NCBI GenBank assembly: GCA_026005075.1
Contig: BPKJ01000004.1
Location: forward strand, 255,501-319,500
Reading direction: 5' to 3'
From: Lysobacteraceae bacterium
GTDB lineage: Bacteria > Pseudomonadota > Gammaproteobacteria > Xanthomonadales > Xanthomonadaceae
Length of the DNA stretch: 64,000 nt
Numbering within the stretch: position 1 is the first letter of the stretch; each line of letters begins with the position of its first letter. Below are positions 3,801 through 7,063 of this stretch, piece after piece. The notes under the pieces are model-generated. The model was not told the DNA's origin, made no database searches, and saw only the letters and a list, made by a program, of their open reading frames with translations. A program made the translations under genes and the position numbers.

Positions 3801-4344
3801 CGAACGCGTGCCCGGAAGCACCGCACTCACCGAGGCCGTCGCGCGCTACGCCTTCAAGCTGATGGCCTACAAGGACGAGTACGAGGTTGCACGGCTGCAC
3901 ACCAGCCCCGCCTTCCGGCGCCAGCTGGAGCAGACCTTCGAGGGCGATTTCCGCCTGCACTTCCACCTCGCCCCCCCGCTGCTGGCCCGGAAGGACGACG
4001 AAGGGCACCTGGTCAAGGCCGAGTACGGCGGCTGGGTCTACCACGCCTTCCGCCTGCTCGCGCGGCTGCGCTTCCTGCGCGGAACGGCGCTGGACGTGTT
4101 CGGCTACACGGCCGAGCGACGCATGGAGCGGCAGCTCATCGAGGACTACTTCCGCACCGTCGAGCACCTGCTCGAGCGACTGGCGCCGGAGAACGTGGCA
4201 CTTGCTGCCGAAATCGCTTCCATCCCCGAGGGAATCCGCGGCTACGGCCACGTCAAGGAAGCGCATCTGGCCGAGGCGAAGAAGAAGGAAGCCGAGCTGC
4301 TGCGCGCCTTCCAGCGCGGCGAGCCGAACAAGGCCGCGGCCTGA
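835..4344 (+). CDS. Indolepyruvate ferredoxin oxidoreductase, fused alpha/beta (IorA-IorB type)
   Basis: A 1169-residue fused thiamine-diphosphate 2-oxoacid:ferredoxin oxidoreductase, which oxidatively decarboxylates aryl pyruvates (from aromatic amino acids) to acyl-CoA. Domain order visible: pyrimidine-binding domain with SGYRGSPLGGFD (about residue 56); TPP-binding domain with YCSGCPHNTS (about 436), GIGCHYM and GGEGATWCGQAPF; a cysteine-rich segment with CEGCGDCGKKSFC (about 639) and CNKDFSCIKGFC (about 672) for 4Fe-4S clusters; the gamma domain with ITGVGGTGVVTIGALL (about 725); and a long C-terminal tail. The length fits the aerobic proteobacterial fused form. ATG 835 is chosen because the protein aligns from there with the family start and AGGAA precedes it; the frame is open further upstream but without homology-like sequence. 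It follows the reductase by 62 bases on the same strand. Confidence 0.93.
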   Translation: MAAVPASFDADYTLEDKYTRSQGRIYLSGVQALVRLPLMQQMRDRAAGLNTAGFISGYRGSPLGGFDLELWRARKHLDASNIRFTPGLNEDLGATMVWGTQQVNLFPGAKVDGVFAMWYGKGPGVDRCGDVFKHANAAGTSRFGGVLALAADDHACRSSTLPHGSELEFVSAMMPILNPAGVQDILDMGLLGWAMSRFTGRWVGFKTIAETVESSASVNVDPHQLEIVVPEDFELPPGGLNIRWPDPPLEQEMRLHQYAVKAACAFARANRIDRTVIDSPRARLGIITTGKSYLDVLQALEYLGLSRKACEDIGIRVYKVGMTWPLEPIGIRDFARGLEDIIVVEEKRSFVESQMKEQMYNWDHATRPSVIGKYDEAGNWILPSTGELTPAMIAKVIAARVQRFHTSETIEQRLKWIAAKEAELAIPRPAFPRVPHYCSGCPHNTSTVVPEGSRALGGIGCHYMVTWMDRRTDTFTQMGGEGATWCGQAPFTETAHVFQNLGDGTYFHSGSLAIRQAISAGVNITYKILYNDAVAMTGGQPVDGTLTVPDIAWQVRAEGVETIVVVSDDIAKWSRPEIFPPGVEFEHRDNLDAVQKRLREVKGVSVLIYDQTCATEKRRRRKRGKLEDPPKRVLINSLVCEGCGDCGKKSFCVSVLPKETEFGRKREIDQSACNKDFSCIKGFCPSFVTVHGGRLRRSKGVDPEALLAELPEPRLPELNQPWNILITGVGGTGVVTIGALLGMAGHLEGKGATVLDQTGLAQKGGAVTTHVRIARQPADIHAVRIAAGEADLVLGCDMVVVNDYWSLSKIRAGRTQVVLNTYEAMPGSFTMNPDLRFPHAGIVAAVRTALGGAEPLQIDATEIATRLLGDSIATNLFMLGYAWQKGLVPLGLAALMRAVELNGAAVEMNRKAFAWGRLAAARPDAVLQAAGLGGTPATEAVPLPLDDTRLSRSLDEMIARRVDFLTDYQNAAYAQRYRTLVERVRAVEAERVPGSTALTEAVARYAFKLMAYKDEYEVARLHTSPAFRRQLEQTFEGDFRLHFHLAPPLLARKDDEGHLVKAEYGGWVYHAFRLLARLRFLRGTALDVFGYTAERRMERQLIEDYFRTVEHLLERLAPENVALAAEIASIPEGIRGYGHVKEAHLAEAKKKEAELLRAFQRGEPNKAAA

Positions 4345-5588: not shown

Positions 5589-6224
5589 TCAATCCTTCTG
5601 CCGCACGAGGTCCCTGCTGGCCACCTCCGCCCGGCGCGCCTCGACCACTCCTTCGAGGTTGTCGAAGCGGCCGAGGTGCGTGCGCTCGCCACCCCTCAGC
5701 TCGTACAGGTCGCATTGACGCTGGGTGGGACAGACCTTCACGTAGGCGCTTTCGGCCCACGGGCCCGACCCGGACTGCCCGGCCACCTCCGCCCGACGCG
5801 CCTCGACCACTCCGTCGAGGTTGTCGAAGCTGCCAAGGTGGGTGCTCTCGCTGCCGCTCAGCTCGTACAGGTCGCATTGACGCTGGGTGGGACAGACCTT
5901 CACGTAGGCGCTTTCGGCCCACGGGCCCGCCTTCTGCGCCTGCTCGTATTGCCCAACGATCTGGCAGTTTCCGTCCTGGCAGCGCCATACCCAGCAAAGG
6001 CGGCCGTCGCAGGTCACGATGGTGCAGCCCTTGGTGCAATCATGAATGGGCTCCGCCAGGGCGGGGCGCGCCGGGCCCAGGGAGCCGGCAGCCAGCAGCA
6101 CGGCGGCGACCAGGCCAGAGGTCCAGGTCCGGGCCGGATTCAGGCTCCGGCGCACCCGTCCCGCCATGCGCCGGATGAGCGTCTTCATGGTCTTCATGGT
6201 CTTCATGGTCTTCATGGTCTTCAT
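5589..6224 (-). CDS. Secreted cysteine-rich protein with duplicated 54-residue module; start codons inside a 9-bp tandem repeat
   Basis: Unrecognised protein. Read from the first ATG of the repeat it is 211 residues and begins with five copies of Met-Lys-Thr, then a basic stretch and a hydrophobic core (SGLVAAVLLAAGSLG) ending in an Ala-x-Ala-like site (PALA, about residue 57), i.e. a signal peptide. The mature part opens with six cysteines within 25 residues (about 62-86), then two near-identical copies of a module containing GPWAESAYVKVCPTQRQCDL and FDNLxGVVEARRAEVA. All five ATGs are in frame, so each could initiate. The likely SD (AGGA) is only 2 bases before the first ATG but about 11 before the second, so initiation may prefer the second or a later one. 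The frame extends up to 6299 without a signal-peptide-like sequence. Function unknown; an exported, disulfide-bonded envelope protein is the inference. Confidence 0.7.
   Translation of the reverse strand: MKTMKTMKTMKTMKTLIRRMAGRVRRSLNPARTWTSGLVAAVLLAAGSLGPARPALAEPIHDCTKGCTIVTCDGRLCWVWRCQDGNCQIVGQYEQAQKAGPWAESAYVKVCPTQRQCDLYELSGSESTHLGSFDNLDGVVEARRAEVAGQSGSGPWAESAYVKVCPTQRQCDLYELRGGERTHLGRFDNLEGVVEARRAEVASRDLVRQKD
5620..5929. repeat. Tandem duplication of a ~148-bp coding module (162-bp period)
   Basis: Copies at 5620-5767 and 5782-5929, in the same orientation and nearly identical; the second half (about 5697-5767 vs 5859-5929) is essentially perfect. The 162-base period keeps the reading frame, giving a 54-residue repeat in the minus-strand protein. 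The near-identity indicates a recent duplication or gene conversion. Confidence 0.9.
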
Positions 6225-6225
6225 G
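6181..6225. repeat. Five-copy 9-bp tandem repeat (GTCTTCATG) carrying start codons
   Basis: Five perfect copies of GTCTTCATG in 45 bases; on the minus strand each unit reads ATG-AAG-ACC. Copy-number change would keep the frame but add or remove start codons and alter the SD-to-start distance of the minus-strand secreted protein. Confidence 0.95.
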
Positions 6226-6290
6226 GTCCTGTTGAGGCGTGTCGCCCCACGGCCACTTGCCCGCTCGCCAGAGTGGGACGGGCCCGGCGA

Positions 6291-6581: not shown

Positions 6582-7063
6582 ATGCCAGGTCGAACCCGCG
6601 AGATCACCTTGCGGTTCCTCGCCGAACCGACCGACGTCAACTTCGGTGGCAAGATGTTCGGCGGCTCGGTGATGAAATGGATCGACCTTGCCGGGTACGC
6701 CTGCGCGACCGGCTGGTCCGGGCACTACTGCGTCACCGCCTACGTGGGCGGCATCCAGTTCGAGCGCCCGATCAGCATCGGCGCACTGGTCGAGACCCGC
6801 GCCCGCCTGCTGCTGACCGGGCGGACCAGCATGCACATTGCGGTCGACGTCTACAGCCGCCTTCCGACCGCTGCGGAGTGGGCGCGCACCACCCACTGCC
6901 TGACCGTGTTCGTGGCGGTGGACGAACAGGGCCGTCCGGTCTGCCGGTGCCGCCGTGGCAACCCGACACCCCCGAGGACCGCGCGCAGGCGGCCTACGCC
7001 GAGCGCATGAAGGCCCTGTCGCTGGAGGTCGAGGCCGAGCGCGCGCGGCTACGCCGGCCCTGA
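6582..7063 (+). CDS. Acyl-CoA thioesterase, YciA-like hotdog fold (apparent frameshift near 6940)
   Basis: Hydrolyses acyl-CoA thioesters. Start ATG 6582 follows GAGAGGAGG. The hotdog signature N-F-G-G-K-M-F-G-G-S-V-M-K-W-I-D sits at residues 20-35, with the Asp as expected catalytic residue, then the AYVGGIQFERPI strand. The frame carries homologous sequence to about residue 119 (VAVDEQGRPV). The expected C-terminus (LPVPPWQPDTPEDRAQAAYAERM..., ending at TGA 7061-7063) then continues in another frame. One missing base near 6940, or a short 8-bp duplication (CTGCCGGT), would explain this. Without the shift, translation would run on in a low-quality Arg-rich tail to 7010. It overlaps the convergent minus-strand gene by 15 bases. 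I treat it as a functional gene with a probable sequence error. Confidence 0.8.

Follow-up and report, generated by a model that had tools for sequence, protein, structure and literature searches.

An unannotated gene in the window, the 64,000-nucleotide stretch of Lysobacteraceae bacterium DNA analyzed here, begins with a tandem array of a 9-bp unit that contains the start codon itself. This in-frame multiplication of the start region is a real and uncommon feature, which is present three times in one genome, apparently of recent origin and probably with one copying event between the genes concerned.

The array lies at positions 6181..6225 of the window on the minus strand and consists of (ATGAAGACC)x4 followed by ATGAAGACG, which together encode Met-Lys-Thr five times, with the first ATG (ATG1) at 6224-6222; on the plus strand it reads as five exact GTCTTCATG units over 6181-6225. 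Tandem Repeats Finder placed it at 6181-6228 (period 9, 5.3 copies, 100% matches, score 96) and ranked it second among the tandem repeats of the window, behind a 162-bp duplication inside the same gene. A probe of two units (18 bases) matched the window five times with up to three mismatches, compared with 0.03 matches expected. The five perfect units and five in-frame ATGs at a minus-strand gene start that the original prediction had described were therefore all recovered (5 of 5 exact), and its claim that a change in copy number would keep the reading frame agrees with a 9-bp unit standing in frame at the gene start. In this analysis, we defined a start-codon tandem array as a unit that contains ATG, has a length that is a multiple of three, and lies in frame at the start of a real gene, and the window array is such a case. 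Like the contingency loci built on simple sequence repeats (SSRs), it is a short tandem repeat with perfect units placed where a gene begins, but it does not share their switching of frame by copy number, because the 9-bp unit keeps the frame. The idea that the array is a side effect of GAAGAC sites was rejected; these numbered 170 against 118 expected from base composition, from which nothing follows.

The gene itself occupies 5589..6224 on the minus strand (the frame runs 6224..5589), and its product of 211 aa reads MKTMKTMKTMKTMKTLIRRMAGRVRRSLNPARTWTSGLVAAVLLAAGSLGPARPALA, followed by a Cys-rich body. The rest of the signal-peptide-like region (LIRRMAGRVRRSLNPARTWTSGLVAAVLLAAGSLGPARPALA) spans 6054..6179, and the product looks exported, as had been predicted; signal peptides were judged by eye here and throughout. 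After the array, the GC contents at codon positions 1, 2, and 3 were 0.69, 0.53, and 0.86, a coding-like pattern that, in conjunction with homologues in 5 of 148 other genomes of the family, indicates a real gene. The protein had no Pfam match above the cut-off (best E 0.019), no NCBIfam match, and no match in plasmids. A coat-protein identity, suggested by one weak match to a solved structure (E 0.049), was not believed. By reading frames the gene stands alone: upstream of it a thioesterase-like frame starts on the other strand, and downstream a membrane-protein-like frame ends on the other strand, both named by eye. A plasmid DNA search matched three records, each covering 8% of the query, at its thioesterase end; one of them is annotated as an acyl-CoA thioesterase. 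A neighbor search that covered the stretches L151 and L152, from the L052 homologue and a third G025 match, found nothing. In the region of about 6900-7063 (plus strand), the thioesterase-like frame from 6582 ends early and by eye the thioesterase-like sequence seems to continue in another frame, so that this neighbor may be frameshifted or misassembled. The window gene is also repeat-rich at a second scale, with the in-frame 162-bp tandem duplication at 5619..5929 on the minus strand (1.9 copies, 93% matches), of which the four homologues in alignment A1 match at most one copy. Its leader (minus strand, about 6060-6170) contains RRSLN, and an Arg lies close to where cleavage is presumed to occur, features reminiscent of Tat leaders; the homologues look Sec-like.

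A search of the whole assembly for two exact units returned exactly three (ATGAAGACC)n arrays, namely the window array (C4:261.7 kb), a second at C4:242,853-242,906, and a third at C1:288,277-288,312, with about four to six units each. The pattern ATGN6 with at least four ATGs recovered the same three arrays and nothing else. All three lie in the Met-Lys-Thr (MKT) frame and open three different unannotated proteins, whose N-termini all resemble signal peptides; the two proteins outside the window begin MKTMKTMKTMKTMKTMKTNVLRMAGLASLGGLLLLGAPLGAVQAAG and MKTMKTMKTMKTMKAMKLLAFAPVLAVALGGPEVRAAG, both with signal-peptide-like leaders, and, like the window protein, they matched nothing above the cut-off in Pfam and nothing in NCBIfam. 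The last units have decayed in two of the three arrays (ACG in one; GCC, then CTC in the other). With up to three mismatches allowed, six further places appeared in the genome, each with two or three mismatches, compared with two control matches, and these six were taken as chance. In a sample that combined the window with 18 stretches, each of 20 kb (416.5 kb non-masked, 14.7% of the genome), the window array was the only perfect tandem array with a period of 4-60, at least three copies, and at least 24 bp. Two features near the other arrays were also recorded. Two near-identical copies of an intergenic element with self-complementary parts (L013, about 4000-4166, minus strand) lie between the MKTx6 gene and a gene that by eye resembles a tyrosine recombinase, and upstream of the C1 array gene lies an IS3-like transposase fragment (by eye; L012, about 4181-4300), and thus the C1 array gene may lie in a disturbed region.

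Homologous genes start without the array. Four of the five homologues of the window protein had readable starts (MRQHLFVV, MFRTIQCC, MCNKILAK, and MKSIFVSM; the exception was L052), all of them short ordinary leaders, and in alignment A1 the window protein carries 25-33 extra residues before the hydrophobic core, an extension absent from the four homologues. For the C1 protein, starts were read for two of the three G025 matches (27 and 33% identical), and these were MKNSQHG and MRFGLHH, again without an array; a match in G001 (a 1188-aa frame) was left out of the homologue count. The protein of the C4:242.9-kb gene had no homologue in 59 relatives. Because these six starts from two proteins all lack it, the array looks like a lineage-specific gain. 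Three exact units were found nowhere in the same 59 relatives, three of them from the same genus, and arrays were accordingly rejected as an ordinary feature of the relatives.

Single copies of the unit in the same genome served as controls. ATGAAGACC occurs 49 times in the genome, 14 of them in arrays, and all of the 35 single sites were examined. Reading frame, composition, and sequence identify at least five of them as gene starts, with two more (L192 and L208) less sure. Ribosomal protein L13 and alaS (alanyl-tRNA synthetase) start in this way, both with Pfam matches above the cut-off, as does a probable mdh (malate dehydrogenase; Pfam E 2.2e-5 with 45 aa of the protein, slightly short of the family cut-off); for two others, read as an aminotransferase and a permease, the fragments searched gave no Pfam match. 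A second unit was present at none of these five to seven gene starts, and none of the products looks secreted. The window gene alone started with MKT among 249 genes whose starts were assigned heuristically from open reading frame, codon composition, and Shine-Dalgarno (SD) sequence, without a gene finder.

The three-unit 27-mer occurred in only eight stretches of a collection of 84,980 genomes, so that a common bacterial repeat was rejected, and in none of viral_contigs. Six of the eight read His-Glu-Asp (HED) in the longer frame (L022, L023, L024, L026, L027, and L028; Candidatus Venteria, Marinomonas sargassi, and others); the arrays of our genome are not of this kind, in which HED lies in a long coding frame. 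In Luteolibacter marinus (L029), five units start a 615-aa protein in which a leader is followed by DUF3604; there is no upstream in-frame start, no SD was seen, and the 9 nt ahead of the first ATG agree with the unit at 8 positions. The last case, a contig of a Bacteroidetes MAG (L025, 1-1062), begins inside (ATGAAGACC)4 at its very end, in frame with a 354-aa endonuclease/exonuclease/phosphatase protein (Exo_endo_phos, E 2.2e-15) with a hydrophobic leader; because the contig begins in the array and other Met codons lie nearer the leader, it is no more than a possible further start array. In a survey of the class (369 genomes), ATGMRNNNN arrays were present in 26 genomes, 25 besides our own, and inspection of one locus in each of these 25 yielded one credible start array. 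It is in G499, where ATGAAGCCT x7 encodes Met-Lys-Pro seven times at the apparent start of a PAS/GAF protein without an evident signal peptide. One of eight other genomes of the genus (G809) has an orthologue, 65% identical, which near its start reads MPPRKPMKPRKP, an imperfect 9-bp near-repeat, and this suggests that the G499 array grew in place. With start arrays in L. marinus and G499 as well, the formation of such arrays appears to be a rare recurrent event.

Other loci of the surveys differed in placement. An apparent Met-Asn-Ser (MNS) start array at kdsD of G674 was rejected, since comparison with G797 identified it as the C-terminal Asp-Glu-Leu tail of the gene upstream; in both genomes (L112/L155 in G674, L156 in G797) a 9-bp Asp-Glu-Leu array ends the gene before kdsD, and in G674 it reaches the kdsD start. 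The family survey covered 19 loci from 17 of at least 96 other matching genomes, picked for perfect-looking units. In G333 (L154/L099), an array of Met-Pro-Leu/Met-Ala-Leu x8 falls within the hydrophobic core of an alpha/beta hydrolase leader (PAF-AH_p_II match), where it extends the h-region and not the n-region, and in G114 (L094), 13 ATG-containing 9-mers, nearly all ATGGAACGG, lie within a longer frame.

We addressed which ATG could serve as the start by locating SD sequences and upstream start codons. In the window gene, a weak SD-like AGGA (6227..6230, minus strand; -4.0 kcal/mol) stops 2 nt short of ATG1 and 11 nt short of ATG2, and the earlier remark that it is too close to the first ATG and well placed for the second roughly holds, the distance to ATG2 being workable though long. 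The C1 gene has AGGAG ending 13 nt before ATG1 (-6.6), and the C4:242.9-kb gene has GAGGG ending 8 nt before ATG1 (-6.4). From ATG3 onward, SD pairing is just -0.3, with the exception of the final ATG in the C1 array (-2.6, but at a distance of 1 nt). In-frame alternatives upstream are a GTG 25 codons before the window array, without an evident SD, and GTG, TTG, and GTG at 12, 13, and 18 codons before the C1 array; between the C4:242.9-kb array and the preceding stop, there is no in-frame ATG, GTG, or TTG. Thus, all three genes are most simply read as starting inside their arrays, a reading that is forced for the C4:242.9-kb gene, and upstream GTG or TTG starts are possible for the other two. 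The predicted openness of the region from -18 to +15 was 0.39-0.61 for the array ATGs, compared with a median of 0.35 for 248 other starts (60th-99th percentile). Tuning would fit such predicted openness but is not demonstrated by it; an A-rich unit in a genome of 69% GC would give the same without selection.

The ATGs could be incidental if the array belonged to the other frame (His-Glu-Asp) or to a neighboring gene and the true start lay elsewhere. The six HED loci in other genomes, the Asp-Glu-Leu tail that mimicked a start array in G674, and the GTG and TTG codons preceding the window and C1 arrays speak for such a reading. However, a GC minimum at codon position 2 appears just in the MKT frame in all three genes, less clear-cut in the C1 gene (0.74/0.52/0.75); the MKT frame is the long open one, the HED frames close at +182, +95, and +470, and the third frame has a TGA in every unit. 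No earlier start codon is present in frame in the C4:242.9-kb gene. We consider it very improbable that the array has another owner or that the true start lies elsewhere. A more serious alternative is descent of the arrays from one another, in which the arrayed 5' end of one gene was copied onto other accessory genes by 5'-end duplication or by template switching at the repeat. The identical unit occurs at three loci while ATGAAGACC starts are otherwise rare, and the window and C4:242.9-kb genes, on the same strand and 18.8 kb apart, agree after the array at 15 of 22 bases (p 0.00045) and 22 of 36 bases (p 0.00055), with pairs of the 249 start-aligned heuristic genes as the null; the length compared was not fixed beforehand, and p ranged from 0.0002 to 0.037 over 12-60 bases. 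These shared bases suggest copying, and on sequence grounds a common origin of the two 5' ends is likely, not proven. The C1 gene, however, has no similarity after the array to the other array genes, and local alignment of the flanks, with 300 bp on the upstream and 500-600 bp on the downstream side, placed no pair above shuffles (p 0.12-0.78). For all three arrays together, spread of one start cassette is a possibility that we hold only tentatively. In three of the five start arrays, the 9 nt ahead of the first ATG are similar to the unit (8, 8, and 6 of 9 positions, against 5 and 3 in the remaining two). Among 172 ATG starts of the sample, two had at least six unit-like bases there, and one of these two is apparently the array of the window; such bases could be decayed edge units or a natural near-repeat of SD and ATG at a 9-base pitch.

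It has also been suggested that copy number tunes expression or export, and a selected rheostat of this kind would act through added starts, opening of the mRNA, and the charge of the n-region. All three arrays are on exported-type genes, none of the other five to seven genes with the same start carries one, the array region is predicted to be open, and each unit adds one Lys. However, the claim that SD spacing would shift with copy number found no support, as the distance from the SD to ATG1 and ATG2 in a tandem array is constant whatever the number of units. Of the expected changes in start number and n-region, the added Lys stands, whereas the later ATGs lack a usable SD; the SD layout also differs among all three genes, and the three-unit probe is missing from all 59 relatives. 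What is left of the tuning claim is an in-frame start array on an exported-type protein with Lys added to its n-region; tuning by copy number is thus a hypothesis, and a rheostat maintained by selection seems to us unlikely. We consider it somewhat probable instead that slippage multiplied the first three codons in frame and that accessory exported-type genes tolerate the resulting array. Slippage during DNA copying would multiply ATG AAG ACC in frame at the start of such a gene, and duplication of a 5' end probably carried the array to a second gene at least once. As the start codon lies inside the 9-bp unit, each gain or loss of a unit keeps both the start and the frame, and a gain would merely lengthen the Lys-rich n-region of the signal peptide, a tolerant part; essential and cytosolic genes with the identical first nine bases would not retain expansions of this kind. 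The most likely start of translation is ATG1 or ATG2, as set by the upstream SD, with the later ATGs read mainly as internal Met, and the A-rich, weakly folded repeat may leave the initiation region open in this GC-rich genome. Three arrays of one unit in a genome where ATGAAGACC starts are rare are hard to account for by plain independent slippage. Against the slippage reading we also count that the shared post-array bases cover two of the three arrays at most, that the C1 flanks show nothing, that GTG or TTG codons precede the window and C1 arrays in frame, and that no SD was seen in L. marinus. A bolder proposal joins these elements: a small family of start minisatellites, spread inside one genome by 5'-end copying, would give newly acquired exported proteins a mutable leader, a frame-neutral rheostat of translation and export that would have evolved separately in the unrelated bacteria Luteolibacter and G499. 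We consider this quite improbable; if it were true, the number of minisatellite units would set the charge of the n-region and the count of open starts.

Repeat-driven variation in bacteria has been discussed mostly as on/off frame switching or as promoter spacing. A review agrees with this emphasis (PMC4235727), and reports on repeats of 6-9 nt were described as rare in another paper (PMC4692102). No paper on start-codon tandem arrays was among the literature matches listed, and the string MKTMKTMKT occurred in 0 of 5.39 million main texts searched. With regard to internal starts, AGGAG was described as slightly in excess before ORF-internal AUGs, with a preliminary indication that many of these are in-frame sites close to the 5' end (PMC6107199). 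A unit made of the start codon plus two codons isolates the effects of n-region length, charge, and multiple starts, because its multiplication shifts no frame and mainly lengthens the leader, and the three natural arrays in one genome, together with single-copy controls that have the identical nine bases, provide a ready comparison.

Among known systems, the lic2A-type contingency loci of Haemophilus influenzae likewise combine a 5' tandem repeat with several possible starts and potential differential expression; as a review describes them, however, the initiation codons precede the repeat, in different frames, and a change in copy number alters the frame (PMC4235727), whereas here an in-frame 9-bp unit holds the start. 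The TAACTGA repeats of marine Beggiatoaceae are also short direct repeats beside starts genome-wide, with a proposed translational role, but they are 7 bp long, mostly intergenic, and upstream of the start, in 169 sets (PMC4679880), compared with three translated sets of 9 bp in our genome. In-frame coding repeats, in the account given in the same review (PMC4235727), likewise have triplet-multiple units that add amino acids without switching expression, whereas the arrays described here sit at the very start and include the initiator. The G499 array also places a 9-bp ATG-containing unit at an apparent gene start, with other codons and without an evident signal peptide. The DUF3604 gene of L. 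marinus is a further likeness, where the identical unit, also five times, starts a protein with a signal-peptide-like N-terminus, although the protein and the organism are different and no SD was found.
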